The translations under genes and the position numbers were made by a program. From Phycisphaerales bacterium (GTDB lineage Bacteria; Planctomycetota; Phycisphaerae; Phycisphaerales; UBA1924): DNA of 64,000 bases. The DNA lies in assembly GCA_020850415.1 (NCBI GenBank), contig JADZER010000040.1, forward strand, positions 1 through 64,000, given 5' to 3'. The notes below the pieces were generated by a model. That model searched no databases and was not told the DNA's origin. It worked only from the letters and a program-made list of their open reading frames with translations. Shown piece after piece: positions 3,893 to 19,567 of the stretch (its first letter is position 1; each line of letters begins with the position of its first letter).

Positions 3893-5566
3893 TCATCGCG
3901 ACGCCCCCACCAAGCTCTGGGCCACGGCCTCGGCGACCTTGATCCCGTCGACGCCGGCGGAGAGGATGCCGCCCGCGTAGCCGGCGCCTTCGCCGGCGGG
4001 GTAGAGGCCGCGGGTGTTGACGCTTTGGAGGGTTTCGTCGCGTTTGAGGCGGATGGGTGAGGAGGTGCGGGTTTCGACGCCTGTGAGGATGGCGTCGGGC
4101 ATGTCGTAGCCGCGGATCTGGCGGGCGAAGATGGGGATGGCTTCGCGGATGGCGTCGATCGCGTAGTCGGGGAGGCAGGGGGCCAGGTCGGTCGGGACGA
4201 CGCCCGGGGTGTAGGAGGGGACGACGCTGCCGAGCGAGGCGCTGGGGCGTCGGGCGAGGAAGTCGCCGACGCGTTGGGCGGGGGCGGCGTAGGTGCTGCC
4301 GCCGGCGGCGAAGGCGGCGGATTCCCACCTGCGCTGGAGGGCGACGCCGGCGAGCGGGCCGTCGGGGTAGTCGCGTTCGGGGGTGATGCCGACGACGAGG
4401 CCGGCGTTGGCGTTGCGCTCGGCGCGGGAGTACTGGCTCATGCCGTTGGTGACGACGCAGCCGGCCTCGGAGGTGGCGGCGACGACCGTGCCGCCGGGGC
4501 ACATGCAGAAGCTGTAGACATCCCGCCCGTTCTTGGCGTGGTGCACGAGCTTGTAGTCGGCGGCGCCGAGGATGGGGTTGCCGGCGCTGGGGCCGAACCG
4601 CGCCGCATCGATGAGAGACTGCGGGTGCTCGATGCGGAGGCCGACCGAGAAGGGCTTGGCCTCGATGTGGACCCCGCGCCCGTGGAGCATCTGGAAGGTA
4701 TCGCGCGAGCTGTGGCCGATGGCGAGGACGACATGGTCGGCGGCGATGCGCTCGCCGCCGGCGAGGACGACGGCGCGGACCCGGCGCGTGCCGTCGGGGT
4801 CGCTCTCGATGTCCAGGTCGGTGACGCGGCTCTCGAAGCGGTACTCGCCGCCGAGCGACTCGATGGTGGCCCGCATGTTCTCGACCATCTTGACGAGCCG
4901 GAAGGTGCCGATGTGGGGGTGGGCGTCGACGAGGATCTCGGGCGGGGCGCCGGCCTTGACGAACTCGGTCAAGACCTTGCGGCCGAGGTGGCGGGGGTCC
5001 TTGATCTGGGTGTAGAGCTTGCCGTCGGAGAAGGTGCCGGCGCCGCCCTCGCCGAACTGCACATTGGACTCGGTGTGGAGGACCGAGTCTCGCCAGAGGC
5101 CCCAGGTGTCCTTGGTGCGGTCGCGGACGACCTTGCCGCGTTCGAGGATGATGGGGTTGAACCCCATCTGGGCGAGGAGGAGCGCGGCGAAGAGCCCGCA
5201 GGGCCCGGCGCCGATCACCAGCGGGCGGGGGGAGGGGTGGGTGGATGGGTGGGTGGAGGGCTGGGCGGATGGCTGGGTGGCGGGGTGGGCGGGGGCGCGG
5301 GCGACGATGCGGTACTCGGTGTCCGGCGTCGGGAAGACGCTTGCGTTCTTGGCGCATCGCCCGAGCACGGCGGCCTCGTCCTGCACCTCAACATCGAGGG
5401 AGTAGACGAGCTTGATGGCGTGCTTGTTGCGTGCATCGTGGGCGCGGCGGTAGACGGTGCAGGAGATCAGTTCGCCGGGCGCGATGCGCAGGCGGGCGGC
5501 GGCCGCCCGGGCGATGGCCTCGGGGGGGTGGTCGAGCGGGAGTCTGATCTCGGTCAGGCGGAGCAT
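3893..5566 (-). CDS. FAD-dependent dehydrogenase of the COG2509 type
   Basis: The 557-residue protein resembles the uncharacterised NAD(P)/FAD-dependent oxidoreductases of COG2509. Residues 1-100 form the typical N-terminal domain (LRLTEIRLPLDHPPEAI; RRAHDARNKHAIKLVYS). A Rossmann ADP-binding motif follows, LVIGAGPCGLFAALLLAQ, with LERG closing the second strand. The C-terminal FAD signature is LYPAGEGAGYAGGILSAG. The start at 5566 gives the family's usual beginning; the open frame upstream is non-coding in character. Between the N-terminal domain and the Rossmann motif sits a repetitive Thr/Pro/Ser/His stretch that looks inserted (see the repeat at 5231-5290). TACAGA lies upstream at 5588-5593. 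Substrate unknown. Confidence 0.85.
   Translation of the reverse strand: MLRLTEIRLPLDHPPEAIARAAAARLRIAPGELISCTVYRRAHDARNKHAIKLVYSLDVEVQDEAAVLGRCAKNASVFPTPDTEYRIVARAPAHPATQPSAQPSTHPSTHPSPRPLVIGAGPCGLFAALLLAQMGFNPIILERGKVVRDRTKDTWGLWRDSVLHTESNVQFGEGGAGTFSDGKLYTQIKDPRHLGRKVLTEFVKAGAPPEILVDAHPHIGTFRLVKMVENMRATIESLGGEYRFESRVTDLDIESDPDGTRRVRAVVLAGGERIAADHVVLAIGHSSRDTFQMLHGRGVHIEAKPFSVGLRIEHPQSLIDAARFGPSAGNPILGAADYKLVHHAKNGRDVYSFCMCPGGTVVAATSEAGCVVTNGMSQYSRAERNANAGLVVGITPERDYPDGPLAGVALQRRWESAAFAAGGSTYAAPAQRVGDFLARRPSASLGSVVPSYTPGVVPTDLAPCLPDYAIDAIREAIPIFARQIRGYDMPDAILTGVETRTSSPIRLKRDETLQSVNTRGLYPAGEGAGYAGGILSAGVDGIKVAEAVAQSLVGASR
5231..5290. repeat. Short-period repeat inside the COG2509 gene
   Basis: GGGTGGAT-like units of about 8 nt with T-to-C variants run for about 60 nt and encode a His-Pro-Ser-Thr-Gln repeat on the minus strand. 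It sits exactly at the junction between the N-terminal domain and the Rossmann strand. It resembles one arm of the arm-like inserts seen in purL, without the complementary arm. Confidence 0.5.
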
Positions 5567-5732
5567 GGGTGTGACCTCATCCCGGATTCTGTAGCGCGCC
5601 GGGCGGCACTGGGGAACCCCACCGGCGCCGCTGGCGGGTTGCCCGCCGGAGCCGGGCGTGGCGCGGGGCTGAGGGGCACGGACTCCCACGATCCTCCCCC
5701 GACGCCCGATCCGACAGGCCCAGGGTATCGGA

Positions 5733-6002
5733 TTACCCCCCCACCCTCCCGGCCGCCGCCGCCGACCCGGTGACCGGCCACACCTCGAAATCTACCAGGT
5801 CGTCCCACGCCCGCATCCAGGCGTCCAGGTGCCCGGGCTCGGCCGCACGCATCAGTTGGAAGCAGACCGACACGGTCTCGTCCACCCAGCTGTCCACATA
5901 CTCCACGCCGGGCGGGAGCATGCGCCCTTTCTGGGCGAACCGCGCGTAGACGGCCGGCGCATCCCGGAACCGTTCGACGACCATGTAGAGGCGGTGGGCC
6001 AC
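5733..6002 (-). CDS. DUF3303 family small protein
   Basis: The 89-residue soluble protein shows the pattern of DUF3303: YMVVERFRD at the start, GRMLPPGVEYVDSWVD in the middle, CFQLMRAAEPG, and W-x-x-x-W-x-DLVDFEVWPV near the end. Members are about 80-95 residues, so it is full length. They have a ferredoxin-like dimeric alpha/beta-barrel appearance and no established activity. A TACCCT hexamer lies upstream on the same strand (6047-6052). The COG2509 gene follows after 166 nt. Confidence 0.7.
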   Translation of the reverse strand: MAHRLYMVVERFRDAPAVYARFAQKGRMLPPGVEYVDSWVDETVSVCFQLMRAAEPGHLDAWMRAWDDLVDFEVWPVTGSAAAAGRVGG

Positions 6003-6129
6003 GCGAACCTCCCGGCGCGATCGCGCCCGCCGCGAGCGGCGTCCCCAGGGTACGGGCCCGGCCCGTCAGGTGTTCGGTTCGCCGGGCGGGCGCGGTCGTC
6101 CGCGCCCGTCTCCCGGCGGCCGGGGTCCA

Positions 6130-6783
6130 TCATCGGCGTCGGCGGGACGCCAGACCGGCGAATGCCAGGAGCGCCAAGGACGGCGGCGCCGGCGGGTAGA
6201 TCCAGCCCACCCCGTAGCTGAAGTCGCACGGGTAGATGCCCAGTTGGTCGCCGGCGCGACCATAATTCGAGCCGAAGTAGACGGAGTAGAAAAAGCTGTT
6301 GTCGTCGTTGAACGGCGTGCCCTCCGCGTTGTCGCCGCTGGTGGTCTGCGCAAACACGCGCCCCGTGCCGTCGCCGATCGGCGAGAGCGCCAGCCAGTAC
6401 TCGCCGGCCGGCAAGCGGATCTCGGGAAAGTGCACGGCGATCGTGTACCCGAGAAAGCCGTAGTTGTTGAAGCCGTTGCGCCACATCTCCCACCCGTCAT
6501 CAACCTCGCCGCCGGCGTGCAGCGTGCCGCCGAACCCGTTGGAGACGCCGGAGCGGAGCTCGTACATGCACCCCTGAACATGGGTGCTGATGTAGAAGTT
6601 GCCCCACGCGTCGCTGACGATGCCGGCGTAGAGGTCGAAGTTCTCGAACACGAACGCGTCGGACACGGTCGTGTTGAACTCGGCGGATAGGCCGTTGACA
6701 TTGTCGGGATCGCCGTTGTACCACCTCTGGGCCGTCGCGCCCGACGCGAGCCCGGCAAGGACGATGCAGATCGCGGTATTCAT
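6130..6783 (-). CDS. Secreted protein with PEP-CTERM-like tail
   Basis: The 217-residue protein has an N-terminal Sec signal (MNTAICIVLAGLASGATAQ, cleavage likely after TAQ). The mature part is rich in Asn, Gly, Tyr, Phe and Trp (WYNGDPDNVNGLS; FNNYGFLGYT), consistent with an extracellular beta-sandwich. The C-terminus PPSLALLAFAGLASRRRR is the short tripartite sorting signal (PxP-like motif, hydrophobic helix, Arg cluster) common in Phycisphaerae. It resembles PEP-CTERM anchors processed by exosortase-type enzymes. I chose the ATG at 6783 because it begins the signal peptide. Ligand or role unknown. Confidence 0.75.
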   Translation of the reverse strand: MNTAICIVLAGLASGATAQRWYNGDPDNVNGLSAEFNTTVSDAFVFENFDLYAGIVSDAWGNFYISTHVQGCMYELRSGVSNGFGGTLHAGGEVDDGWEMWRNGFNNYGFLGYTIAVHFPEIRLPAGEYWLALSPIGDGTGRVFAQTTSGDNAEGTPFNDDNSFFYSVYFGSNYGRAGDQLGIYPCDFSYGVGWIYPPAPPSLALLAFAGLASRRRR

Positions 6784-7172
6784 GGCTCGTCTCTCCCTCC
6801 CGCCCCCCGACTCCGTCCCCGTTCCGGGCCCCGGACTCCGCCCCCGGACGCCGGGGGAGGTACCCACGGGGCATCGCCACAAAACAGGATAATCATGTCC
6901 GTCATTTCCGCCAATAGTGCCGTCGGTCCCCCGGCGCCAAGCGAGGCGTGTCGGTCAGCCGCCCTGACCCCAGCCGCAACCGCCCCTGCCCGATTCCCAC
7001 TCATCCCGGTGGGCTCATTCCAAACTTTGTCCAAACCGACCCCCCCCAACCAGACCACCCAAACACACACCGCGCCCATCCCGAGGCCGACCACCTACGA
7101 TCGAGAGCCGCCGTGCCGCACTCCCGGCACGAGCCCCAGGCCACGCGCACCCACAGATCGGAACACCCCCCC
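6784..7172. other. Intergenic region between divergent genes
   Basis: These 389 nt separate the secreted protein (minus) from fabH (plus). A patch less rich in GC lies near 6880-6915. A TACGAT hexamer at 7096-7101 could be the -10 box for fabH, about 70 nt before its GTG. The right half is C-rich with oligo-C runs and no gene was recognised. Confidence 0.4.
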
Positions 7173-8252
7173 GTGTCGACCGCCCAGCCCATCGCCCGCA
7201 CCTCGCCCCCGCCGCTGATCGCCAAGACACCGGGCGCGCCGGTCGGGGCTCACATCGCCTCGTTCGCGTACTACCTGCCCGAGCAGGTGATCACCAACGC
7301 GGAGCTCGCGCGTCTGGTGGACACCTCCGACGAGTGGATCCTCGCGCGCACCGGCATCCGCTCGCGCCGCCGGGCGGCGGACACGGAGGCCACCAGCGAC
7401 CTGGCCATCGCCGCGGCCCGTCGCGCCCTGGCGGACGCACGCACCGACGCCGCCGAGCTTGACACGATCCTCGTCGCGACGGCCACGCCCGACTCGCCGG
7501 TCCCGGCGGTCGCGTGCATCGTCCAGGCGGGGCTGGGGGCGGTGAACGCCGCGGCGATGGACATCGGGGCGGGCTGCTCGGGCTTCCTGTTCGCCCTGCA
7601 CACCGCGGCGTGCTTCACCCGGGCCGGGGCGGCGCAGCGGATTCTGGTGCTCGGCGCGGAGACGCTGACGCGGGTCACCGACTACAGCGACCGTCGCTCG
7701 TGCATTCTTTTCGGCGACGGGGCCGGGGCCGCGATCGTCACCGCGCACCCCGAGCAGCGTGCCGACAACCTCGGGCTCGAGCTGCTCTACTCCCAGCTCG
7801 GCACGGACGGCGAGATGGCCGATCTGATCGAGATCCCCGCGGGCGGCAGCCGCATCCCCGCGAGCGAGGCGTCGATCCGCGACCACGGCCACTTCATCCG
7901 GCTCGACGGCCAGCGCGTCTTCAAGCAGGCGGTCCGGCGCATGGCCGAGGCCGCGGTGGACGCGATGAACGCGCTGAACCTCAAGCCCGCCGATATCGAC
8001 TGGCTGCTCCCCCACCAGGCGAACGCCCGCATCGTGGTCTCGGTCGCCGAGCAGACCGGCATCGCGCCCGCCCGGGCGATGCTGGACATGGCCGAGACCG
8101 GCAACACCTCCGCGGCGTCGATCCCCATCACGCTCGGGCGGGCCCGCGACAGCGGGCAGCTGCAGCCCGGCCAGGTCGTCATGATGCTCGCGTTCGGCGC
8201 GGGTCTCACCTGGGCCTGCCAGGTCTGGCGGGTCTGCGCCCCGGCCAACTGA
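7173..8252 (+). CDS. fabH: 3-oxoacyl-[acyl-carrier-protein] synthase III (FabH)
   Basis: FabH condenses an acyl-CoA primer with malonyl-ACP to start type II fatty acid synthesis in the cytoplasm. The full catalytic triad is present: Cys135 in DIGAGCSGF, His281 in LLPHQAN and Asn311 in GNTSAAS. Other family marks are DEWILARTGIRSRR near the N-terminus and FGDGAGAAI. I took the GTG at 7173, giving 359 residues; the open frame reaches back to 6948 but that part reads as Pro-rich non-coding sequence. About 25 residues precede the family's usual first strand (GAHIASFAYYLP), so a later start is possible. No other fatty acid synthesis gene is adjacent. Confidence 0.93.
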   Translation: MSTAQPIARTSPPPLIAKTPGAPVGAHIASFAYYLPEQVITNAELARLVDTSDEWILARTGIRSRRRAADTEATSDLAIAAARRALADARTDAAELDTILVATATPDSPVPAVACIVQAGLGAVNAAAMDIGAGCSGFLFALHTAACFTRAGAAQRILVLGAETLTRVTDYSDRRSCILFGDGAGAAIVTAHPEQRADNLGLELLYSQLGTDGEMADLIEIPAGGSRIPASEASIRDHGHFIRLDGQRVFKQAVRRMAEAAVDAMNALNLKPADIDWLLPHQANARIVVSVAEQTGIAPARAMLDMAETGNTSAASIPITLGRARDSGQLQPGQVVMMLAFGAGLTWACQVWRVCAPAN

Positions 8253-8408
8253 ACCCGGCGGGCCACCCGCGCGAGCCCCGTGCGCGCACAACGGCGTCGA
8301 TCAAGCAGCAGTTGCTCACCGACACCAGCGCCTGTGCGCGACATCGCGGTGCTGCGCGCTTGCCCCCTTGCCGCCTGCCCCACGCCGGCCGACCCGCCGG
8401 CCGGGGGC

Positions 8409-9032
8409 TCAGTCCACCCGGCGGGGCGCGATGGTGGCGACCATCCGCATGCTGGCCGACTCGAGGTTGGCGGCGATGGCCGCGTCCTCGAGGTCGTCGG
8501 GGTGGATCGTCAGGTCGACCGTCGCGTACTGCAGGCGCGGGCCGACATCGTAGCGCAGGGTGAACAGGACATGCTGCACATTGGTCAGGAGCGGGTACTC
8601 CTCGGGTTCTCCGACGGGCTCGCCGTCGAGCACCTGGGTCTGGACATACCACAGCTCGTAGGGGGCTTCGCCGCCGGGCGAGGCGTCGCGCCGTTCGATG
8701 CGGACCACCGTCTCCTCCCCCGAGTCCTCGTCGCGCGCGGTGACGAACTCGATCTCGGGCGGGTCGGGGATGAGGACCGGGTCCTGGATCGGGTTCAGCG
8801 GGAAGGGCCCGAAGTCCTCGCCGGTCCGGATCATCGTGGTGAGCCGGTGCATGACCATGCGGGCGACGACATGCGAGCTGGCGCTCTCGGTGGTGGCCTT
8901 GTAGCTCTTGAAGCTCGCGTCGAGCGCCGTGAGCGTCGCGGTCAGCAGCATCGAGCTGATCATCAACGCGACCAGGAGCTCGGCGACGCTGAACCCGCGC
9001 CGGGCGCGTCGGGGTGCGGGGCGGTGGTTCAC
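8409..9032 (-). CDS. PilW/GspJ-like prepilin-type protein
   Basis: The 207-residue protein begins with a short basic leader (RRARRGF) followed by SVAELLVALMISSMLL. This is a type III prepilin signal: cleavage after Gly, methylated Phe, Glu at +5, and a hydrophobic assembly helix. The rest is a mixed domain with polar loops. Position and size match a minor pseudopilin of the PilW/GspJ type. The GTG start at 9032 overlaps the stop of the upstream large gene by 4 nt (GTGA), implying translational coupling. It is the last gene of the minus-strand pilus/secretion cluster. The exact minor-pilin class is inferred from order and length only. Confidence 0.75.
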   Translation of the reverse strand: MNHRPAPRRARRGFSVAELLVALMISSMLLTATLTALDASFKSYKATTESASSHVVARMVMHRLTTMIRTGEDFGPFPLNPIQDPVLIPDPPEIEFVTARDEDSGEETVVRIERRDASPGGEAPYELWYVQTQVLDGEPVGEPEEYPLLTNVQHVLFTLRYDVGPRLQYATVDLTIHPDDLEDAAIAANLESASMRMVATIAPRRVD

Positions 9033-12000
9033 AGCTTGCCCTCCCTGTAGCTCGCGGCGACGGGCAACGCCTTCACCGGCAGCATCAGCCCGTCCGGCAG
9101 CGCCGCGTCGCTGTTGAACTGCAGCCGGATGCGCCCGAACCCGTTGAACGGCACCGACACGGCCCCCGCGTCGAACTCGTCCTCTGTCGGCGTCTCGTCG
9201 GGACCCAGATCGGCGAACCCGTCGCCGTTGAGGTCCCAGCCGACGATCTTCACCCCGTCGACCTCCGGGAGGTCCCACGGGTCGTACGACTCCTCGTCCC
9301 CGTCCTCGGGGCCGAAGTATCCCAGGCTGGCGTTGAACCCCGCGGGGTTGCCGACCGGGTTGCCCGACACATCCTTCAGCGGGCCCTCGCCGTAGACCGG
9401 CGCGAAGGTCAGCAGCAGGGACCCCTCGATCTCCGCGTTGCCGCGCACATCGAGCACGCCGGCGACCACCGTCCCGTGCAGCTTGACCTCCTGCTCCGGG
9501 GGGCTGTTGAAGGTCCCGACATCCACCGAGAAGTTCGGCAGCATCATCGAGCTCTTGACCAGCTCCGGCAGGTCGACCTCCTCGGGGTTCAGACCCTCGT
9601 CCGTCGGGTGCTCCTGCAGGAATCGCGTCTTGCCGGTGAACTGGAGCTTGTTGCGCACATGCGTGTACTCGTGCGGGACATCGCTGACGATGGAGCCCAC
9701 GAACAGCGAGTCGTGGAAGCGGATGTTGTTGGAGTAGAGGCGGGTGTCCGTCACGCGTGTGGGGACGATCTCGGGCCCCGAGCCGATATCACGGACCGTC
9801 TCGATGATGAGCGGGTCGGGGAGCGCGTCGTAGTCGCTCGCCGAGTAGCTGCCGACCTCGCTGGCGGGGATATCCCCCTTGTCGATCGGCGTCTCGGCCA
9901 TGAGCATGAGCTGGAAGGGGGGCCTGGCCTCCTCGGGCAGGACCGACTCGTCGAGGGGCGGGCAGTCGCACGAGCCCGAGCCCGAGTCGTACTCGTCCGA
10001 GTCGTCGCCGAAGACCCAGCGCTCGCGCTGGGGGGCGGGGCGCTCGGTGTCGGAGTCCCAGACCATCTTGCCGTACTCGTTCCAGGCGAGCTGGGGCTTG
10101 TCGTCGTCGAGGGCGTTGAAGTTGTCGGCGTGGGCGCGGACATAGGTGGCCCCGACAAAGGTGCACTCGACGAACAGCCCGTTGAGGCCCTCGGGGATCT
10201 GCACATCGCGGAAGACCATGTGCTCGAAGACGGGCCGGTAGTACCAGTCCACGGGGGTCGGGGCGTTGAAGGGCATGGGCTCGAAGTAGGCGGAGTCCCA
10301 GTTGTCGGGCAGGCCGTCGAGGTCGGCGTCCTCGTCGAGGCGGAGGAAGCGGGGGTAGTAGACCTGGTTGCCCGAGCCGTCGTCGTAGGAGTCGCCGGAA
10401 TCGTGGGACTCGTCGTAGGTGTCGAGGTCGCCGGTGTCGACGCCCAGGTTGTCGGCGACCTGCTGCCAGAAGTCGTCGCCGTCGGCGGCGGCCTGGATGG
10501 CGGTCTCCGACTCGGTGAAGCTGTCGGCGGTGATGAGGGGGAGGTCGGACTCGGTGGCCTCGAAGACGCGGGGCGGGTCTCCCTTGTCGGGGTTGACGGC
10601 GCCCATGAGGGACTGGTTGTAGTCGGGGTTGGCGGTGGCCCAGGCGGACTCGGCGACGCTGAAGACGAGCTTGCCGTTCACCTTGGTGTAGCGGTCCATG
10701 AGGTCGATGTAGCCGTCGAGGTAGCCGAGCTCGTTGTCGGCGTAGTGCTTGGTGTTGCCGGTGCCGTCGTCGTACCAGAACCAGTCGAGGAACTCCTCGC
10801 CGTCGTCGGGGTCGTAGCGTCCGTCGCGGTCGATGTCCTCGAAGCCGTAGACGCCGTTGCGGTTGCGGTCGGGGGTGGAGGAGTCGATGAGGTAGGCGAG
10901 GTCCTCGTCGATGATCTCGCCCTCGCCGTCGACGAACTCGGACGCGATCTCGACGCGCCCGTCGCCGTCCTCGTCGAAGTGGTTGATGAAGAGGTCGAAC
11001 TCGTCGACGAAGCCGTCGTCGGTGGCGTCGTAGAAGGCGGACTCGGGGTCGGGGTCGCCGCCGTCCATGCCGTAGCCCTCGGGGATGGCGGGGCCCTCGA
11101 TGGGGTGTTCGGGCCGGAGGCGGTTGTCGCCGTCGATATCGACATCGGGGTCGCTGGCGGCCTCGTAGAACGCCTCGAGCTTGGAGTCGAGCGTGGGGTC
11201 GATGTACATGAAGTCGGACTTGGTGACGAGGGGGTCGCCGTTCTCGAAGTCGAGCGCATCGAAGCGGGCGCCCAGGTCGCCGACGATCTGGACATTCTTC
11301 CCGATGAGGATGCGGCTGGGGCTGACGACGGCCTGGTCGAGCCGCTTGGAGATGCGGTAGTCCCGCATGATCGTCCGCGTCATGGGCGGGCGGTTCTCCT
11401 GGAAGTCGTAGCCGATGACGATGATGCGGACATCGGTGCCGTTGGCGAGGGGGGCGTAGACGATCTGGTAGCCGGCGGGCGGGGGCCCGTCGTCGGCGGG
11501 GGTGTCGATGGCGACGATGGGCGTGATGATCCACTCGTCGGCGGCGTAGACATCGGGGTCGGCCTCGGGCCAGGCGCTGGTCATCTGGGGCTCGGAGATG
11601 TCGGAGTCGGACTCGACGATGATGTTGTCGTCGAGGGCGTGGAGGAACATCAGGGCCTCGGCGAGGTTGGCGGGGACATCCTCGTAGCCGAGGGGGTTGG
11701 CGGTGACGGTGTACTCGCCCCAGCCGCTGAGGCTGCCGCTCCAGAGGGAGTCGACGAAGGAGGCGGACATGTCGCTCTCCTCGACGACGAACCGGCTGGC
11801 GGACATGGCGATGCGTTCCTGGGCGACGATGAGGCCGGTCTCGGCGGCGCCGAGGGCGCAGGTCACCTGGAGGTGGGTGGCGGCGGTGCGGATGTTGCCG
11901 CGGCTGGAGATGGCCATGGCGGCCACGAGCGAGCCGAAGAGCACGAGGAACATCATGGCGAGGACGGAGACCACGCCGCGCCGGTCGAGGCGTGCGGGCC

Positions 12001-12040
12001 TGCGCCTTGCGTTGCGTGGTTGCTGCGAGCGTGCGGACAC
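9029..12040 (-). CDS. Giant PilX/GspK-like protein with calcium-loop motifs
   Basis: The 1003-residue product starts with a basic leader (ARLDRRG) and a long hydrophobic helix (VVSVLAMMFLVLFGSLVAAMA), then THLQVTCALGAAETG, as in PilX/GspK-type membrane-anchored pilus proteins, which are normally 150-350 residues. The following 900 residues are strongly acidic. At least six DxDxDG-type loops are visible: DIDGDNRL near residue 300, DATDDGFVD near 340, DEDGDGRVE near 355, DRNRNG and DRDGRYDPDDG near 390-415, DADLDGLPD near 567, and DLNGDGFADLG near 937. Such loops bind calcium in dockerin and thrombospondin-3 type repeats. A Cys-x-Cys pair lies within a Ser/Gly-rich segment. It is probably an exported, calcium-stabilised tip or adhesion subunit. 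A long opposite-strand frame here is a mirror artefact. Confidence 0.75.
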   Translation of the reverse strand: MSARSQQPRNARRRPARLDRRGVVSVLAMMFLVLFGSLVAAMAISSRGNIRTAATHLQVTCALGAAETGLIVAQERIAMSASRFVVEESDMSASFVDSLWSGSLSGWGEYTVTANPLGYEDVPANLAEALMFLHALDDNIIVESDSDISEPQMTSAWPEADPDVYAADEWIITPIVAIDTPADDGPPPAGYQIVYAPLANGTDVRIIVIGYDFQENRPPMTRTIMRDYRISKRLDQAVVSPSRILIGKNVQIVGDLGARFDALDFENGDPLVTKSDFMYIDPTLDSKLEAFYEAASDPDVDIDGDNRLRPEHPIEGPAIPEGYGMDGGDPDPESAFYDATDDGFVDEFDLFINHFDEDGDGRVEIASEFVDGEGEIIDEDLAYLIDSSTPDRNRNGVYGFEDIDRDGRYDPDDGEEFLDWFWYDDGTGNTKHYADNELGYLDGYIDLMDRYTKVNGKLVFSVAESAWATANPDYNQSLMGAVNPDKGDPPRVFEATESDLPLITADSFTESETAIQAAADGDDFWQQVADNLGVDTGDLDTYDESHDSGDSYDDGSGNQVYYPRFLRLDEDADLDGLPDNWDSAYFEPMPFNAPTPVDWYYRPVFEHMVFRDVQIPEGLNGLFVECTFVGATYVRAHADNFNALDDDKPQLAWNEYGKMVWDSDTERPAPQRERWVFGDDSDEYDSGSGSCDCPPLDESVLPEEARPPFQLMLMAETPIDKGDIPASEVGSYSASDYDALPDPLIIETVRDIGSGPEIVPTRVTDTRLYSNNIRFHDSLFVGSIVSDVPHEYTHVRNKLQFTGKTRFLQEHPTDEGLNPEEVDLPELVKSSMMLPNFSVDVGTFNSPPEQEVKLHGTVVAGVLDVRGNAEIEGSLLLTFAPVYGEGPLKDVSGNPVGNPAGFNASLGYFGPEDGDEESYDPWDLPEVDGVKIVGWDLNGDGFADLGPDETPTEDEFDAGAVSVPFNGFGRIRLQFNSDAALPDGLMLPVKALPVAASYREGKL

Positions 12041-12089: not shown

Positions 12090-12761
12090 TTAGGGGACGA
12101 TCCAGCTGACGCGTGCCATCTCGAGCTCCGCGCCGTTGTCGGGGGTGAAGGTCACGACGACGGTGACGCGGAGGGGGAAGTCGTTCATGCCGAGCGGCGG
12201 GAGGCCGCCGGACTCGGACTCGCGCCAGTAGTTGTCGTCGCGGGTGGTCCCGGTGTCGAAGGGCTCGACCTTCTCGACGATGACCTCCTGGGCCCAGCCG
12301 TGCATGGGCTCGGGGTTGCCGTCCTCGTCGGTGCTGACCGAGCCGTCGAGGTTGATCTCGGGGATGATCTCGGCGAGGGCGTTGATGGGCCCGTCCATGT
12401 TGCCCTCGTGCCCGAACCGCATGCCGTCGAGGTCGTCGAGGTCGTCGATGTCGGCGGCGGTCTCCTCGCCGGGCTCGAGGCCGAACGCGTAGCCCATGTC
12501 GGCGTCGAGCCTGCGGACGGGGTCGTGCCTGTGGAGGTCGCGGGTGAACTCGCGGACCTCCTGGGCGAGGAAGGTGCCTGTGGCGGCGTGGGAGGACCAC
12601 AGGTTGCTCTGGATGAAGGCCGACTGGGCCTCGACCATGGCGAGGACGCCGACGCCGAGGATGACGAGCGTGAGGGCGGTCTCGAGGAGGGTGAAGCCTC
12701 TGCGTGCGCGTCGGGGGCGCCGGCGTGTCCTGCGGCTGGTCGGGCTGGCGGTCGGGGTCAT
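12090..12761 (-). CDS. PilV/GspI-like prepilin-type protein
   Basis: The 223-residue protein has the classic N-terminal methylation motif: a basic leader, then GFTLLETALTLVILGVGVLAMVE, with Phe after the cleavage Gly and Glu at +5. The C-terminal domain ends with an immunoglobulin-like or beta segment (LRVTVVVTFTPDNGAELEMARVSWIVP). This is the pattern of minor pilins PilV/GspI. The ATG at 12761 was chosen because it leads directly into the basic leader; the longer frame upstream would place a Pro-rich segment ahead of the leader. It lies between pilC and the giant PilX-like gene and is probably co-transcribed with them. Confidence 0.78.
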   Translation of the reverse strand: MTPTASPTSRRTRRRPRRARRGFTLLETALTLVILGVGVLAMVEAQSAFIQSNLWSSHAATGTFLAQEVREFTRDLHRHDPVRRLDADMGYAFGLEPGEETAADIDDLDDLDGMRFGHEGNMDGPINALAEIIPEINLDGSVSTDEDGNPEPMHGWAQEVIVEKVEPFDTGTTRDDNYWRESESGGLPPLGMNDFPLRVTVVVTFTPDNGAELEMARVSWIVP

Positions 12762-12836
12762 GCTCGGGCTCCACGGGTGCAGGGCGCGGCCCGAGGTCGC
12801 TGGGCTAGCGCGGCCCGACCCCGCCGCAAGCATCGG

Positions 12837-14060
12837 TTACTGCACGAGCTGGCTCATCTTGAAGATCGGGAGAATGATGGCCATCGCGATGAATCCAACG
12901 ACTGAACCCATTACAACGATCATGATGGGCTCGATCATGCTCGTGACGGCCTTGATCTGGTCCTTTAACTGCTTGGAGTAGTAGTCGCTGATCTCGTCGA
13001 GCACCTCTCCGAGCTTTCCGGACTCTTCGCCGGCGGCGACCATCTGGACGACCGAGCGGGGCATGAGGCCGTCCTTGAGGAGCGGCCCGGTGATCTTGCG
13101 TCCCTGCTTGACGGAGGAGTGGACCCGGTGCCACATGCCCTTGTAGAGCTGGTTGCCGGAGATGTCGCCGGTGATGGTGAGCGTGTCGAGCATGGGGACG
13201 CCGGCGTTGATGAGCTGGCCCATGGTCTGGAGCGAGCGGCTGATGTACAGCGACTGGAACATGCCCTTGAAGAGGGGGAGGGTGAGCTTGAGCTTGTCGA
13301 CCCAGAAGGAGCCGACCTCGGTCTTGAGCACGACGAAGATCATGCCGGCGAGGGCGACGACGCCGCCGAGGATGAAGGGCCACTCGGCGGTCATGAAGTG
13401 GCTGAGGCTCATGAGGAACCGGGTGGCCCAGGGGAGGACATCTTCCTTGCCCTCGAAGACGAGGTAGAAGCGCGGGAGGACGAAGGCGAGGAGGAAGACG
13501 GTGACGCCGACGGCGAGTGTCCCGATGATGCCGGGGTAGATGGAGGCGCCGACGACCATCTTGCGGGTCTCGATCTGCTGGCCGATGTACCCGGCGATGC
13601 GGTCGAGCATCTCGCTGAAGGAGCCGGACATCTCGGAGGCGCGGACCATGGAGACATAGAGGGGCCCGAAGAGCTTGGGGAACTTGGTGATGGCCTCGGA
13701 GAACTGCTTGCCGCTCTCGACATCGTCCTTGAGGCTGTTGACGACCTTCCGGAACGCGGCGTGGTTGGTCTGCTCGGCGATGCCGTCGAGCGCGGCCCGG
13801 AGGTTGATGCCGGCCCGGATCATGACGGCGAGCTGGGTGGTGAAGTCGAGGACATTCTTGGTGGTGGGCTTCCGGGAGTTGATCCGGGCGAAGAACTCGC
13901 CGACGCCGGCGCCGGCCTCCTTGGGCGCCGGGGAGAGGGCCATGACATGCATGCCCTGCCCTCGGAGCGCGGAGGCGGCGGCGGCGACGGACTCGGCGTT
14001 GAGTGTCCCCGCGGTGACCTGTCCGGCGCCGTTTCGTGCCTGGTAGCGGTAGGTTGGCAT
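12837..14060 (-). CDS. pilC: Type IV pilus / type II secretion inner-membrane platform protein (PilC/GspF)
   Basis: The 407-residue product is the polytopic inner-membrane platform that couples the cytosolic ATPases to pilin assembly. It begins MPTYRYQARNGAGQVTAGTL, the usual GspF/PilC opening. Two T2SSF domains follow, each ending in hydrophobic segments (for example FLLAFVLPRFYLVF and GGVVALAGMIFVVL). The C-terminal half carries the conserved stretch SLQTMGQLINAGVPMLDTL, and the final membrane segment has EPIMIVVMGSVVGFI. Length is as expected. It starts 15 nt after the pilT stop, so one transcript is likely. Lower synonymous GC at the very 3' end is visible but minor. Confidence 0.93.
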   Translation of the reverse strand: MPTYRYQARNGAGQVTAGTLNAESVAAAASALRGQGMHVMALSPAPKEAGAGVGEFFARINSRKPTTKNVLDFTTQLAVMIRAGINLRAALDGIAEQTNHAAFRKVVNSLKDDVESGKQFSEAITKFPKLFGPLYVSMVRASEMSGSFSEMLDRIAGYIGQQIETRKMVVGASIYPGIIGTLAVGVTVFLLAFVLPRFYLVFEGKEDVLPWATRFLMSLSHFMTAEWPFILGGVVALAGMIFVVLKTEVGSFWVDKLKLTLPLFKGMFQSLYISRSLQTMGQLINAGVPMLDTLTITGDISGNQLYKGMWHRVHSSVKQGRKITGPLLKDGLMPRSVVQMVAAGEESGKLGEVLDEISDYYSKQLKDQIKAVTSMIEPIMIVVMGSVVGFIAMAIILPIFKMSQLVQ

Positions 14061-14075
14061 GGTTTACCTCTGGCC

Positions 14076-15197
14076 TCAGGCCGCGAGCTGCCGGGCGATC
14101 TTGTCGGGGTGGACGGCCTGGGCGATGGCGTCTTCCTTGCTGATCTTGCCGTTGAAGTACAGCTCGCCGATGGCGGTGTCCAGGCTGCACATGCCGATGG
14201 CCCGGTTGGTCTCGATGACATTGGGGATTTCGAAGGTGCGGCTCTCACGGATGAGGTTCCGCACGGCGGGCGTGCAGAGCAGGACCTCCACGGCGGGCAC
14301 CATGCCGGGCTGGTCCTGCCTGGTGAAGAGGGTCTGGGAGACGACGGCCTGGAGGGTTCCGGCGAGCATCGCGCGGATCTGGTTCTGCTGGCCGGCGGGG
14401 TACATGTCGATGATTCGCTCGACCGTCTGCGAGGCGTTGACGGTGTGGAGCGTGGAGAGCACGAGGTGGCCGGTCTCGGCGGCGGAGATGGCCAGGGCGG
14501 TGGTCTCGAGGTCGCGCATCTCACCGACGAGGATGATGTCGGGGTCCTGACGCAGGGCGTGCTTGAGCCCGGAGGCGAATGTGGGCATGTCCTGACCGAG
14601 CTCGCGCTGCTCGATCAGGCACTTGTCGCTGACGAGGGCGTACTCGACGGGGTCCTCGAGGGTGATGATGTGCTTGGCGTAGCGCTCGTTCATGGCCTGG
14701 ATCATGGCCGCGAGCGTGGTGGACTTGCCCGAGCCGGTGTCGCCGGTGACGAGGACCAGGCCGCGGGGCAGGTAGGTGAGGCGGGCGATAACCTCGGGGA
14801 GACTGAGCTTCTCGAGGGGCGGGACCTTGGTCTTGATGGTTCGGAGCGCCATGGCGACGGCGGCCCGCTGCATGTGGGCGTTGACGCGGTAGCGTCCGAA
14901 CTTGGGGTTGGCGAAGGAGAAGTCGGCGTCCTTCTGGCGTTCGAAGATGGACTGCGCCTCGTCGGAGGCGATCTGCTTGAAGTAGCCGGCGACATTGGCC
15001 GGGGTCAGCTCGGGCAGGTCCATGCGTTGGACGACCTGGTGGACCCGCATCGTCGGCTGGTGGCCGGCGACGATGTGGATATCGGAGGCGTCAGACTCGT
15101 GCGCGTACTGCAGGATCTTCTCAAGCTCCACGGGTGTGCCTCCGGCGCCCGCCTGCGCCGCCGGAGCGGCCGCGCGTGGCGGGCCGGTGGCAGTCAT
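14076..15197 (-). CDS. pilT: Type IV pilus retraction ATPase (PilT)
   Basis: The 373-residue protein is a hexameric AAA-like secretion ATPase that powers pilus retraction or recycling of assembled pilins. Seen: Walker A GDTGSGKST at 152-160, an Asp/Glu box HIITLEDPVEY at about 176-186, Walker B IILVGEMRD at 221-229, and the His box GHLVLSTLHT. PilT character is supported by the length and by the N-terminal segment LQYAHESDASDIHIVAG. The start at 15197 adds a 22-residue Ala/Gly/Pro leader before VELEKIL; an in-frame GTG there is an alternative start. First gene of the pilus cluster; no PilB-type assembly ATPase or secretin lies in the window. Confidence 0.93.
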   Translation of the reverse strand: MTATGPPRAAAPAAQAGAGGTPVELEKILQYAHESDASDIHIVAGHQPTMRVHQVVQRMDLPELTPANVAGYFKQIASDEAQSIFERQKDADFSFANPKFGRYRVNAHMQRAAVAMALRTIKTKVPPLEKLSLPEVIARLTYLPRGLVLVTGDTGSGKSTTLAAMIQAMNERYAKHIITLEDPVEYALVSDKCLIEQRELGQDMPTFASGLKHALRQDPDIILVGEMRDLETTALAISAAETGHLVLSTLHTVNASQTVERIIDMYPAGQQNQIRAMLAGTLQAVVSQTLFTRQDQPGMVPAVEVLLCTPAVRNLIRESRTFEIPNVIETNRAIGMCSLDTAIGELYFNGKISKEDAIAQAVHPDKIARQLAA

Positions 15198-15354: not shown

Positions 15355-15828
15355 CTACAGACCGGCGGCGGCGTCCCGGGCGGCGACGGCGAGCTGGTCG
15401 CACCGTTCGTTCTCGGGGTGCTCGCTGTGGCCCCGGACCCAATGGAAACGGACCTGGTGGTCGGCGATGAGCTCGTCCAGCCGGGTCCAAAGGTCCTGGT
15501 TCTTCACGGGCTTCTTGTCGGCCGTCTTCCAGCCCCGTTTCTTCCAGGCGGCCATCCACTCTTTGAGGCCTTTGAGGACATACTGGGAGTCGGAGTAGAG
15601 GTCGACCTCGCTGGGCCGTGTGAGGGCCTCGAGGCCCCGGATGACCGCGGTGAGCTCCATGCGGGTATTGGTCGTGGCGGGGTCGCCGCCGGAGGCCTCG
15701 CGTTCCTTCTTTGTAGAGGGGTGTCTGAGGATGTACGCCCAGCCGCCGGGCCCGGGGTTGCCCGAGCAGGCGCCGTCGGTGTAGAGCTCGACCGTTGCGT
15801 TCTGTTTGGTGGGGCGGGGGTCGGCCAT
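15355..15828 (-). CDS. rnhA: Ribonuclease HI
   Basis: This 157-residue enzyme cleaves the RNA strand of RNA-DNA hybrids during replication and R-loop removal. All four catalytic acidic residues are present: D18 in [12 protein letters not shown]58 in TRMELTA, D80 in LYSDSQYV and D144 in NERCDQL. The basic handle [16 protein letters not shown] is present. The ATG at 15828 is preceded by a TACAGT hexamer 7 nt upstream (15836-15841) and no ribosome binding site, suggesting a leaderless message. It lies between the pilus cluster and purL with no clear functional link to either. Confidence 0.95.
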
Positions 15829-15835
15829 GGGGCGG

Positions 15836-15841
15836 ACTGTA
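15836..15841 (-). promoter_or_regulatory. Leaderless-type -10 element of rnhA
   Basis: TACAGT on the minus strand, 7 nt before the rnhA ATG. With transcription starting about 7 nt after a -10 box, the message would begin at or next to the start codon. Confidence 0.45.
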
Positions 15842-15844
15842 CCC

Positions 15845-15975
15845 GGTGGCACGGCTCTCCGAGCCCCGGGCCCGGCCGGCGGGCCTTGCGGCGCGAGCGG
15901 GGGCACTCATTCCACGGCTCGGAGAGCCGTGCCACCGTGGGGGCCTCGACTCACGGCTCGGAGAGCCGTGCCACC
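15845..15975. repeat. Three copies of a palindromic REP-like element
   Basis: CACGGCTCGGAGAGCCGTG forms an 8-bp hairpin. It occurs complete at 15914-15932 and 15953-15971, each followed by CCACC, and as a partial reverse-orientation copy at 15845-15865 (GGTGGCACGGCTCTCCGAGCC). All three lie between the divergent rnhA and purL genes. Copies of this kind are, from memory, common in planctomycete genomes. They resemble REP elements. Confidence 0.7.
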
Positions 15976-16010
15976 TCGGGAGCCTCGCGGGTTCTCGGAC
16001 AGACGGGCCA

Positions 16011-16016
16011 TACCAT
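16011..16016 (+). promoter_or_regulatory. Leaderless-type -10 element of purL
   Basis: TACCAT with a 5-nt spacer (CGGCC) before the purL ATG at 16022. No ribosome binding site precedes that ATG. Confidence 0.45.
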
Positions 16017-16021
16017 CGGCC

Positions 16022-19000
16022 ATGCCTACCACCGCCGCCCCGTTGCTCGCTGTGCACCGGTTCGAGGTCCACCCTGCGCCCGGCCGGGCCGACCCCCGCG
16101 GGGCGCGGGTGCTGGGCGAGGCGCGGGGGCTGGGGTACGCGCTGGAGTCGGTGGGCGCGACGCGGGTGTATCTGATAGAAGCGGCGATCGACAGCGACGG
16201 CGCGGGCCGGCTGGGGCGGGGGCTGCTGGCCGACCAGGTGGTGGACGAGTGGGCCGAGGGGGCGCGGCGGGCGGCGCCCGGGGCGGTCAGCGTCGAGGTG
16301 CACCCGCTGCCGGGCGTGATGGACCCGGCGGCACAGTCGGTGCGGGACGCCGCGGCGGAGCTGCTCGGGCTGGAGCGAGGGGCAGTCCGGGTCTCAACAG
16401 GGTGGCGGTACGACCTGACGGGGGCCGACGCGGGGAAGGCCGCGGAGATCGCGAGGCGCCTGCTGGCCAACCCGGTGGTCAACGCGATCCACGCCGAGCC
16501 CTTCTGCCCGGCGCGGCTGCCGGTGGGGCACGCGGCGGAGTTCCGTCTGACGCGGGTCGCGGTCCGGGAGCTGGACGACCGGGCGCTGGAGAAGCTCTCG
16601 CGCGAGGCGCACCTGTTCCTGAGCCTGGACGAGATGCGCGCGATCCGGGACGAGTACCGGCGGCTGGAGCGCGAGCCGACGGATATCGAGCTGGAGACGC
16701 TGGCGCAGACCTGGAGCGAGCATTGCGTGCATAAGACGCTGAAGAGCAGGATCCGCTACAGGCACGGAGGCACCGAGGCACGGAGGGACGAGGGGGGAGA
16801 CATCATCGCCTGGGAGGGGCGGCCGGGGCATACGGTGCATGAGGATGGGTCGGTCGAGATCGACAACCTGCTGAAGCGGACGGTGGCGGCGGCGACCTTC
16901 GAGCTGATCGAGGAGGGGGTCGACTGGACGCTGAGCGTGTTCAAGGACAACGCGGGGATCGTGGCGTTCGACGACGAGCACGCGGTGTGCATCAAGGTCG
17001 AGACCCACAACCACCCCTCGGCCATCGAGCCCTACGGCGGGGCGGCGACCGGGATCGGCGGGTGCATCCGCGATGTGATCGGGACGGGGCTGGCGGCCAA
17101 GCCGGTGGCGAACACGGATGTTTTTTGTGTGGCGTTTCCCGGTCACTTCGTGACCCGGAGCGACGAAGCGACGAAGGCACGAAGCGACGAAGGGGTCGAC
17201 CCGGGGGCATTCGCGGGCCCTTCGTCGCTCCGTCTCTCCGTCGCTCCGTCGCTGCTTCCCGCCGGCTGCCTCCCGCCCCGGCGGATCCTCTCGGAGGTCG
17301 TCGCCGGCGTGCGCGACTACGGCAACCGGATGGGGATCCCGACGCTGAACGGGGCGGTGTATTTCGATGACCGGTATGTGGGGAACCCCCTGGTGTTCTG
17401 CGGGTGCGTGGGGGTGATGCCGCGGGACAAGTGCGAGGGGGCGGCGGCGCCTGGTGATCTGATCGTGGCGTTGGGCGGGCGGACGGGGCGTGACGGGATC
17501 CACGGGGCGACCTTCAGCTCGGCCGAGCTGACGGATACGCACGCGGACGAGTTCAGCCACGCGGTGCAGATCGGGAACGCGATCGAAGAGAAGCGGGTTC
17601 TGGACGCGATCCTGCGGGCGAGGGATTGGGGAAGGGACGGAGGCACGGAGGCACGGAGGCACGACGGGGAGACCCAGACTGCCGTCCCTTCGTCCCTTCG
17701 TGCCTCCGTGCCTCCGTGCCTCTTCCGCGCCATCACCGACTGCGGGGCCGGCGGGTTCAGCTCGGCGGTGGGCGAGATGGGGGAGAAGATCGGGGCGACG
17801 GTGCATCTGGAGCGTGCGCCGCTGAAGTACGACGGGCTGAGCTACACGGAGATCTGGATCTCCGAGGCGCAGGAGCGGATGGTGCTGGCCGTGCCGCCGG
17901 AGAACCTGGGGGCGCTGCAGGGGATCTGCGACGAGGAGCATGTGGAGCTGGCGGTGCTGGGGACCTTCGGCACGCCCGGCGCAGACTTGGTGCTGAACTT
18001 CCGGGGCACGGAGGTCGGGCGCCTGCCGATGCGGTTCCTGCATGAGGGGCTGCCGCAGGTGGTGCGGGAGGCGGTGTGGGGGGGGAGAGACGAAGAGACG
18101 GAGAGACGAAGAGACGGAGTGCGCGCGGAAGCGGGCACGATCGCTCAATCCTCCACTTCGTCTCTTCGTCTCTCGGTCTCTTCGTCTCTGGTGGCGCTCC
18201 TCTCCCACCCCAACATCGCGAGCAAGCACTGGATCGTCCGGCAGTACGACCACGAGGTGCAGGGCAACACGGTGCTGCGCCCGCTGGTGGGGCCGGGCGG
18301 GGTGGGGCCGGGCGACGCGAGCGTGATCGAGCCGGTGGCGGGGTCGGGGCGTGGGCTGGCGATCGGGTGCGGGCTGGCGACGGGGTTTGGGGACCCGGCT
18401 CTCGGCGGCGACCCCTACCTGATGGCGATCGCGGGGATCGACGAGTGCGTGCGGAACCTGGTGTGCGTGGGCGCGGACCCGGAGCGGATCGCGATCCTGG
18501 ACAACTTCTGCTGGCCGAGCTGCGGCAAGCCGGAGAACCTTGGTTCGCTGGTGCGGGCGGCGGAGGGGTGTTACGACGGCGCGAAGGCGTACCGGACGCC
18601 GTTCGTCAGCGGGAAGGACTCGCTCAACAACCAGTTCACGACAGAAGACGGCCGCACGATCGAGATCCCGCCGACGCTCCTGATCACCGGGATGGGGATC
18701 GTGCCGGATGTGTCGCGGTGCGTGACGATGGACGCCAAGCGCGTCGGGAATGTGCTGCTGCTGGTGGGGGAGACGACCGGCGCGATGGGCGGGTCGCACT
18801 ACGCGCAGCTGTTCGGCGTGCAGGCGGGCACGCTGGCGGGCGACCCCGACTCGCTGGTGGCCGAGGCCGAGCGTCGGGCGGCGGCGTTGCTGGCGAATGT
18901 GCCGGGCGCGGCGACCAAGCAGGCCCAGGGGCTGATCCGCGCGCTGGCGCCGATGGCGATCGGGAAGCTGGACTCGCTGGTGACGGCGTTCGGGCCCCGG

Positions 19001-19567
19001 GCGAGCCAGACGGCCAAGAACCTCGCGGCGCGGCTGGGGAACCCGGCGGTGGAGAAGCTGGCGGCGGAGATCGGCCCCGAGCGGGTGCAGGAGCTGCTGC
19101 GGATCGTGGCGACGGCCGCGGAGGCGCAGGGACTCTCGGCCCGCGTTCCGGCGTTCGACCCTTCGACCGGGGCGCGGACGGCGCGGGCGGTCGCGGCGTG
19201 CATCGCGGAGGGCCTCGTGGCCAGCGCGCACGACTGCTCGGACGGGGGGATGCTGGTGGCGGTGGCGGAGATGCTGATCGGGGGGCACTCGGGGGCGGCG
19301 CCGATGGGCGCGGAGCTGGCCGATCCGCCCGGCGCGATCCACCCGACGGCGTGGTGCTTCGCGGAGAACGCGGGGCGGTATGTGCTGGAGGCGCCGGCGC
19401 TGCATGTCGACCGCGTGCGGTCGATCATCGGCGAACGGGCGCGCGGGGTGGGGGTCCGGGCGCTGGGCGTGCTCGACGGGTCGGGGCGCCTGCGCTGCGG
19501 GGCCCTGGGGCTGGACGAGCCGGTCGTGGGGCTCACGGGGGTGTGGCGCGGGACGCTGGACTGGTAG
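16022..19567 (+). CDS. purL: Phosphoribosylformylglycinamidine synthase, PurS-PurL fusion with in-frame inserts
   Basis: The enzyme makes FGAM from FGAR, ATP and glutamine-derived ammonia in purine synthesis. It has 1181 residues; small PurL is about 750. Residues 1-170 form two PurS-like halves (VHRFEVHPAPGRADPRG; VSVEVHPLPGVMDPAAQ). PurL marks follow: LSLDEMRAIRDEY, TWSEHCVHKTLK, HNHPSAIEPYGGAATGIGG, ITDCGAGGFSSAVGE, QYDHEVQGNTV, SGKDSLNNQ and SAHDCSDGGM. No glutaminase domain is present, so a separate PurQ is expected. Four repetitive inserts rich in R, E and T or in S, L and P interrupt surface positions without breaking the frame (separate entries). A further segment of about 100 helical, Ala-rich residues sits between GGSHYAQLFG and PSTGARTARAV. 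The ATG at 16022 follows a TACCAT hexamer by 5 nt. Confidence 0.95.
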   Translation: MPTTAAPLLAVHRFEVHPAPGRADPRGARVLGEARGLGYALESVGATRVYLIEAAIDSDGAGRLGRGLLADQVVDEWAEGARRAAPGAVSVEVHPLPGVMDPAAQSVRDAAAELLGLERGAVRVSTGWRYDLTGADAGKAAEIARRLLANPVVNAIHAEPFCPARLPVGHAAEFRLTRVAVRELDDRALEKLSREAHLFLSLDEMRAIRDEYRRLEREPTDIELETLAQTWSEHCVHKTLKSRIRYRHGGTEARRDEGGDIIAWEGRPGHTVHEDGSVEIDNLLKRTVAAATFELIEEGVDWTLSVFKDNAGIVAFDDEHAVCIKVETHNHPSAIEPYGGAATGIGGCIRDVIGTGLAAKPVANTDVFCVAFPGHFVTRSDEATKARSDEGVDPGAFAGPSSLRLSVAPSLLPAGCLPPRRILSEVVAGVRDYGNRMGIPTLNGAVYFDDRYVGNPLVFCGCVGVMPRDKCEGAAAPGDLIVALGGRTGRDGIHGATFSSAELTDTHADEFSHAVQIGNAIEEKRVLDAILRARDWGRDGGTEARRHDGETQTAVPSSLRASVPPCLFRAITDCGAGGFSSAVGEMGEKIGATVHLERAPLKYDGLSYTEIWISEAQERMVLAVPPENLGALQGICDEEHVELAVLGTFGTPGADLVLNFRGTEVGRLPMRFLHEGLPQVVREAVWGGRDEETERRRDGVRAEAGTIAQSSTSSLRLSVSSSLVALLSHPNIASKHWIVRQYDHEVQGNTVLRPLVGPGGVGPGDASVIEPVAGSGRGLAIGCGLATGFGDPALGGDPYLMAIAGIDECVRNLVCVGADPERIAILDNFCWPSCGKPENLGSLVRAAEGCYDGAKAYRTPFVSGKDSLNNQFTTEDGRTIEIPPTLLITGMGIVPDVSRCVTMDAKRVGNVLLLVGETTGAMGGSHYAQLFGVQAGTLAGDPDSLVAEAERRAAALLANVPGAATKQAQGLIRALAPMAIGKLDSLVTAFGPRASQTAKNLAARLGNPAVEKLAAEIGPERVQELLRIVATAAEAQGLSARVPAFDPSTGARTARAVAACIAEGLVASAHDCSDGGMLVAVAEMLIGGHSGAAPMGAELADPPGAIHPTAWCFAENAGRYVLEAPALHVDRVRSIIGERARGVGVRALGVLDGSGRLRCGALGLDEPVVGLTGVWRGTLDW
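16757..16797. repeat. purL insert A: single 9-nt-period arm
   Basis: A run of GGAGGCACG-like units encodes RHGGTEARRDEGG in the PurL frame, between RIRYR and the segment leading to DNLLKRT. Only one arm is present. It sits in the loop before a conserved PurL strand, and the reading frame continues. Confidence 0.7.
17156..17257. repeat. purL insert B: palindromic short-period element
   Basis: The left arm (GCGACGAAG-like units, about 17156-17195) and right arm (CTTCGTCGCTCCGTC-like, about 17218-17255) are near-complementary around a 20-odd-nt centre. The frame reads SDEATKARSDEG, a linker, then SSLRLSVAPSLL. It lies between TDVFCVAFPG and LPPRRILSEVVAGVRDYGN, which are close together in other PurL proteins. 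Confidence 0.75.
17631..17730. repeat. purL insert C: palindromic short-period element
   Basis: Left-arm units GGAGGCACG (about 17631-17671) are answered by CCTCCGTGC units (about 17685-17729). The frame reads GGTEARRHDG, a linker, then SSLRASVPPCL. It splits LDAILRARDWG from FRAITDCGAGG, which are nearly adjacent in the family, so the insertion is unambiguous. Confidence 0.8.
18085..18192. repeat. purL insert D: palindromic short-period element
   Basis: The left arm has GAGACGAA/GAGACGGA units of 8 nt (about 18085-18119) and the right arm has TCTCTTCG-like units (about 18155-18191). The frame reads EETERRRDG, a linker, then SSLRLSVSSSL. It lies in the loop just before LLSHPNIASKHW, a conserved PurL segment. 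Confidence 0.75.

Follow-up and report, generated by a model that had tools for sequence, protein, structure and literature searches.

The stretch analysed here, 64,000 nt from a Phycisphaerales bacterium (contig JADZER010000040.1 of assembly GCA_020850415.1; referred to as the window), carries on its minus strand a pil operon in the order pilT, pilC, a PilV-like gene, a long gene that we call X, and a PilW-like gene. The frame of X contains no internal stop in the 1003 codons from 12040 down to 9029 and is considered certain because 44 orthologues align along it; these are 33–75% identical to the window protein overall and 31–75% identical within sub-alignments. A first-pass annotation of this DNA had described the product as a large protein with a PilX/GspK-type N-terminus, coupled to the PilW-like gene by a 4-nt overlap and located with pilT and pilC. 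All three points were borne out: the leader ends in RRG and is followed by VVSVLAMMFLVLFGSLVAAMAI, with an exported part of ~950 residues, the overlap reads GTGA, and both pilT and pilC lie upstream of X on the same strand. The annotation did not list the PilV-like gene that separates pilC from X. It had also proposed looking for homologues beside pilT and pilC, and the order pilT-pilC-pilV-X-pilW on one strand was indeed found at 39 of 40 loci fetched widely around X; the sole exception, L055, stops at a contig edge. Features of the locus are compiled in Table 1.

Table 1. Features of X and of the surrounding pil operon (residue numbers refer to the X precursor)
Feature	Coordinates	Strand	Basis
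Gene X, putative K-type modular minor pilin, 1003 amino acids	9029..12040	minus	Open reading frame, GTG start, orthologue alignment
Leader peptide, residues 1–22, ends RRG	11975..12040	minus	G22 in 45/45 and R21 in 44/45 aligned rows
Hydrophobic N-terminal helix, residues 23–75; mature position 5 is L27, not Glu	11816..11974	minus	
Probable pilin globular part, residues 76–236	11333..11815	minus	Inferred from position and strand-like pattern
First solenoid-like strands, residues 237–257, AVVSPSRILIGKNVQIVGDLG	11270..11332	minus	Conserved; counterpart in short homologues, by eye
Acidic motif DxDxDNRLR, residues 301–309	11114..11140	minus	D301, D305, R307 invariant; 303 is D/N in 45/45
EF-hand-type loop 1, residues 338–349, DATDDGFVDEFD	10994..11029	minus	D at 1, 5, 9, 12 in 44, 44, 44, 45 of 45
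EF-hand-type loop 2, residues 356–368, DEDGDGRVEIASE	10937..10975	minus	D/N/E/S at 1, 3, 5 in 45, 43, 44 of 45
Overlapping loops 3 and 4, residues 391–413	10802..10870	minus	D/E/N in 0.71–0.87 of rows
Half-loop DGxIDxxDxYxK, residues 442–453	10682..10717	minus	D449, K453 invariant; D442 42/45, D446 44/45
Loop DADLDG, residues 571–582, not conserved	10295..10330	minus	0.38–0.49 of rows
Solenoid-like rungs, residues 590–645, RPVFEHMVFRDVQIPEGLNGLFVECTFVGATYV	10106..10273	minus	Alignment A4
Solenoid-like rungs, residues 760–880, SNNIRFHDSLFVGSIV ... GTVVAGVLDVRGNAEIEGSLLLTF	9401..9763	minus	Alignment A4
Loop DLNGDGFAD, residues 936–944, part of family	9209..9235	minus	Aligned in 33–34 of 45 rows
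pilT, retraction ATPase	14076..15197	minus	TIGR01420 430 bits, cut-off 319.1
pilC/gspF-type platform protein	12837..14060	minus	PF00482 E 1.6e-58
PilV/GspI-like minor pilin, G|FTLLE	12090..12833 (in-frame ATG also at 12761)	minus	TIGR02523 E 4.1e-6, below cut-off; PF07963 over cut-off
PilW/GspJ-like minor pilin, 207 amino acids, G|FSVAE	8409..9032	minus	PF07963 over cut-off; PF11612 (T2SSJ) E 0.18

In order to characterize the N-terminus across the family we used alignment A1, which holds 45 of 49 extracted sequences (the window and 48 loci). L032, whose frame is broken near its start, and L056, L065 and L067, with uncertain starts, were omitted from it and retained in the tree; X-bearing genomes such as G010, G027, G028, G047, G055, G059 and G060 lie outside all alignments. 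The break in L032 (genome G001, near 6861) is close to the N-terminus and probably a sequencing error. Homologues lacking a prepilin-type N-terminus, which the first-pass annotation had named as a finding that would speak against it, were not encountered: the cleavage-site Gly is present in 45/45 aligned rows, a count that is not blind, since eight of these rows were found via the leader motif and the four broken or uncertain starts are excluded. Mature position 5 (residue 27) is Leu in 43 rows, Val in two and Glu in none, and Glu5 is present in both prepilin-like neighbours in the window (GFTLLE and GFSVAE). Membrane-like windows in the window protein start at residues 20–30 only, forming a single such region, and Cys626 is kept in all 45 rows. 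GspK/XcpX and PilX-type K pilins share with X the Gly at −1, the hydrophobic helix, the missing Glu5 and prepilin gene neighbours; GspK is described as carrying an inserted domain and calcium sites (PMC8179133, PMC6211770, PMC9934059). X differs from them in its ~1000 residues, its EF-hand-type loops and its solenoid-like repeats. The GspK model gave a weak match in 9/45 members (best E 0.0013; region of match not given) and PilX_N reached E 0.28 in one class relative. Since these GspK matches are weak and GspK and PilX models leave the window protein unmatched, X was filed as K-type by its features and not by a model. It seems very probable to us that X is a K-type pilin to which a module has been added. 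According to PMC9934059, the K subunit, a bulky one, sits on top of the H-I-J-K complex, a position that a missing Glu5 fits; a tip position of X is argued from the same two properties, the missing Glu5 and its bulk.

The distribution of X links it to pilT. At the thresholds used, X is lacking in eight genomes (G023, G042, G048, G049, G054, G327, G348 and G375), which are 91–98% complete and mostly drafts. The operon-type PilT is missing in seven of these eight, where the best PilT is 42–46% identical, while in four X-bearing genomes tested a first PilT is 67–100% and a second 41–45% identical. A second PilT locus, distinct from the X locus, was present in all 12 genomes tested. Because X and the operon-type PilT are absent together, X appears tied to one retractable pilus locus, although single absences of either gene may be gaps, the assemblies being mostly drafts. 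This result also bears on a secretion pseudopilus, which the first-pass annotation had offered as an option: X would be the K subunit of a type II-like system, with its calcium module plugging or gating the secretin. GspK/XcpX is reported to bind calcium (PMC6211770), the PilC-type protein of the operon scores highest to GspF (yet under the GspF cut-off), and the weak GspK matches point the same way. The option is weakened by an operon led by a PilT-family ATPase that is missing in seven of the eight genomes lacking X, and no secretin was matched on the window's contig; mainly because of PilT we regard it as improbable.

The first-pass annotation had further counted at least six DxDxDG loops. 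Their number holds, as the pattern D.[DN].[DN]G occurs at 299, 356, 391, 402, 571 and 936, whereas 5000 shuffles of the D-rich exported part contained 0.29 on average and never more than 4. However, the loops are unequal in conservation, and an EF-type loop at 338 escapes the pattern. Loops 338 and 356 are retained throughout the order members in the alignment; those at 571 and 936 are not general, and 391/402 are gapped out in part of the family (alignment with half of the rows viewed). Loop 338 meets the twelve-residue EF pattern, with oxygen ligands at 1, 3, 5, 9 and 12 and Gly at 6 (40/45); position 3 is T in 28, N in 11, D in 4 and S in 1 of the 45 rows. The end of loop 356 differs in length between members. 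At seven positions taken as ligands in loops 338 and 356, D/E/N occupy a mean of 97% of rows versus a median of 44% at 136 other Asp/Asn positions, a value matched by none of 20000 random draws; since both loops were picked after their conservation had been seen, this figure is descriptive and no blind test. Members with short loops look textbook-like, for example DANNDGYVDTYDMFVLKYDSNNDGALSESEFS in L059. EF-hand_5 was matched in 6/45 members (best 5.4e-7), EF-hand_7 in 9/45 and Dockerin_1 in 2/45 (E up to 0.1), and a profile of the loop block retrieved 18 sequences from the PDB (E no higher than 1), mostly EF-hand proteins. In contrast to EF-hands and dockerins, with which loop 338 agrees at positions 1, 3, 5, 6, 9 and 12, only about six residues separate loops 338 and 356, so that no more than a single short helix would fit. 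Calcium binding by X seems probable to us.

The loop block is flanked by repeat-like sequence: solenoid-like rungs, with the patterns F.NV.IP.G.NALF.NCTF.GV, NNIRF.NCTF.GSIV and GTIVAGVLDVRGNA.I.G, were found from residue 237 on as well as in residues 590–645 and 760–880, and Pentapeptide_3 was matched in 6/45 members (best 0.00093). This suggests that a beta-solenoid carries the loop block. For the preceding globular part, the PDB profile search with the whole of X yielded no significant solved relative. A comparable arrangement is ComZ of Thermus thermophilus, a DNA-binding minor pilin whose beta-solenoid module is so large that, it is argued, the tip is the one place for it (PMC6561018). 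The main text of that paper does not mention calcium, whereas X has a conserved loop block; no sequence match between X and ComZ was found, and of the ComZ-type feature, a beta-solenoid inserted in the pilin beta-sheet, X shows the repeat-like sequence alone. X could by analogy be a DNA receptor for natural transformation, its solenoid tip binding DNA, and ComEC is indeed found in all 12 genomes tested, the window's own among them. However, eight of these 12 genomes lack X, and a link between X and competence was rejected because the distribution of ComEC does not track X. X is also longer than ComZ, which was not among its PDB profile matches, and strongly acidic (calculated isoelectric point 4.05, family median 4.33), though calcium could bridge to DNA. 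With its acidity and the untracked ComEC, we consider DNA uptake unlikely. Beta-solenoids are described as usually tied to hydrolytic activity (PMC6561018), and invariant polar residues are numerous in X (N771, N772, R774, N797 and K798, for instance), so that a carbohydrate-active enzyme borne at the tip was also weighed, with the solenoid as lyase or hydrolase and calcium serving catalysis or stability. Enzyme families gave no match to the window protein and no convincing one to any member, nor was a catalytic motif recognised; we take this reading to be unlikely.

Matches to X were found in 56 of 61 genomes searched, the window's own counted. A search with the single protein gave 12 matches in an even draw of 199 phylum genomes, and a profile of the solenoid part gave 48 in an even draw of 150 class genomes, 18 of which fall among the 24 order members. 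The match in a genome-contig scan is a Phycisphaerales metagenome-assembled genome; in viral contigs, 26 stretches fitted a pattern and none was a relative. A tree of the solenoid part with 71 rows separates 11 short rows (open frames of 533–745 amino acids; families f7, f9, f91 and f97) from a loop-bearing clade of 60 rows with support 100/100. None of the 11 short class homologues carries the loops, while the solenoid part is present, and the short form L096 shows the same pilT-pilC-pilV-X-pilW order. In the clade, 53 rows fit the strict loop pattern, five (L129, L137, L138, L130 and L070) were assigned by a relaxed pattern or by eye, and two have altered loops (L128 without the Gly, L055 with a changed first loop); under strict labels alone, in a count made before relabelling, the loop changes on the tree number six and not one. 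The loop block thus looks like an addition to an older, loop-free solenoid pilin, gain rather than loss being the direction we infer as far as a midpoint root and three long-branched short rows allow. The varying number of loops, the lack of loops 3 and 4 in part of the family and the loop-free homologues would also agree with the loops being a structural spacer, with X initiating assembly and PilY1 or another protein adhering. Against this stand the ligands of loop 338, which hardly vary among the order members aligned, and, with little weight, the PilY1 model, which matched 0/61 relatives and likewise 0/14 control genomes. We hold a mere spacer to be rather unlikely. Three loci deserve separate mention: L132 (G363) has two X-like genes, at 4252–6486 and 8052–9794; L097 (G199) has, just upstream of its X homologue, a 487-residue frame (5374–6834) with a PilX-like start and no Pfam match; and in L138 (G381) an open frame of 1207 codons (4414–8034) spans the X homologue.

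We favour a reading of X as a calcium-stabilised modular pilin located at the tip and used for adhesion, and give this whole chain a probability of about 0.5. A retractable type IV pilus would have X as its K-type (GspK/PilX-type) minor pilin, grown into a modular tip protein. Once cleaved by prepilin peptidase after RRG, X, lacking Glu5, would become the outermost pilin, and beneath it would follow the operon's PilV-like (I) and PilW-like (J) subunits; the prepilin nature of these partners is confirmed by PF07963, while the PilV model stays below its cut-off and T2SSJ at E 0.18. Pilus extension would push X outward and PilT would retract it. The outer 770 residues would form a beta-solenoid-like module from which the EF-hand-type loop block projects, calcium in the conserved loops would fold or stiffen this block, and the stiffened tip could then hold a ligand, possibly a particle, a polysaccharide or a neighbouring cell, against the retraction force.

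The closest working analogues of X would be ComZ, PilY1 and the modular pilins of Streptococcus sanguinis. The tip adhesin PilY1/PilC resembles X in its ~1000 residues and its EF-hand-like Dx[DN]xDGxxD motif, and calcium is reported to be required for pilus function (PMC8833165, PMC3248442). X has a pilin N-terminus, whereas PilY1 does not belong to the pilins and ends in a beta-propeller (PMC8179133); the C-terminal PilY1 domain PF05567 was not matched in X (Pfam to E 1). PilB and PilC of S. sanguinis combine a pilin module with a bulky adhesive module, are modelled at the tip, and a metal site of PilB, modelled as Mg, is described as important for adhesion (PMC8179133, PMC9934059). Their modules are vWA and lectin domains that databases recognise, unlike those of X.

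Several results weigh against the favoured reading. The window protein matched no Pfam or NCBIfam model (Pfam to E 1), and no ligand-binding or catalytic domain was recognised in X. The best PDB match of the loop block is an engineered calmodulin sensor at E 0.0021 (best single stretch 0.11), the remaining ones having E of 0.067 or higher, a hyaluronidase and a mannanase among them; loops 338 and 356 begin 18 residues apart, a distance that would not accommodate an EF-hand pair of the standard two-helix kind. With the solenoid part, the PDB profile search returned only chains of SV2, at E 1.8 and above; SV2 is pentapeptide-like. With the whole of X the best E was 0.55. AlphaFold gave unusable models both for whole X with one relative (predicted local distance difference test score 27.6) and for the loop block with two sequences (34.2). 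G375 carries, at L146, an orphan operon-type pilT (69% identical) without X, and pilC, pilV, X and pilW were all not found in the 17 kb around it. The claim that PilY1 is absent was dropped, as none of the 14 control genomes gave a PilY1 signal. Finally, neither a second T2SSE ATPase, as pilB would be, nor a secretin was matched on the window's contig; the H subunit and the major pilin were not sought elsewhere.

Modular pilins have been described before and are reported to be underestimated (PMC8179133), and calcium-binding K subunits are known as well (PMC6211770); in the cited papers, modular pilins and calcium-dependent tip adhesins are treated apart. No report of a Phycisphaerae tip pilin was found in the open-licence PMC literature, mostly judged from listings, and model matches among X relatives are scattered ones to EF-hand, Pentapeptide and GspK models plus singletons. 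New here are the missing Glu5, the near-invariant loop 338, the loop-bearing solenoid pattern and the joint absence with pilT. A bolder and doubtful proposal is that X of the Phycisphaerales merges the jobs of K pilin and PilY1, as a solenoid tip adhesin whose loop block, added to a shorter loop-free solenoid pilin of the class, would act as a calcium attachment switch. These bacteria often occur on particles and algae. If the favoured reading is true, X would be a candidate adhesin in them that is genetically linked and broadly retained, and its family would offer a natural series (short and loop-free, one loop pair, many loops) for the addition of a calcium module to a pilus tip.

Beyond the window, the genome contains 14 T2SSE-type ATPase matches, including pilT of the window and an incomplete match at the end of a contig, on contigs C4, C10, C20, C38, C40 (the window's own), C44, C50, C54, C58, C59 and C60, together with six secretin matches, five of them over the cut-off. 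Because of these numbers, multiple type IV filament systems probably coexist in this genome; C44 has a pilB-like gene and a second pilT gene near its end. A promoter and terminator scan gave 0 and 3 sites, respectively, compared with 0.5 and 2.8 in shuffles. On its upstream side the pil operon adjoins RNase HI and a divergent purL (15355–19567), and in 15 of the 40 loci the fetched stretch also contained an RNase HI match. On the other side of the operon, 6130–6783 on the minus strand encodes a small protein that looks secreted. It starts with a signal, and at its C-terminus a hydrophobic stretch runs into a final RRRR, a tail that we take to resemble a PEP-CTERM/MYXO-CTERM sorting tail.

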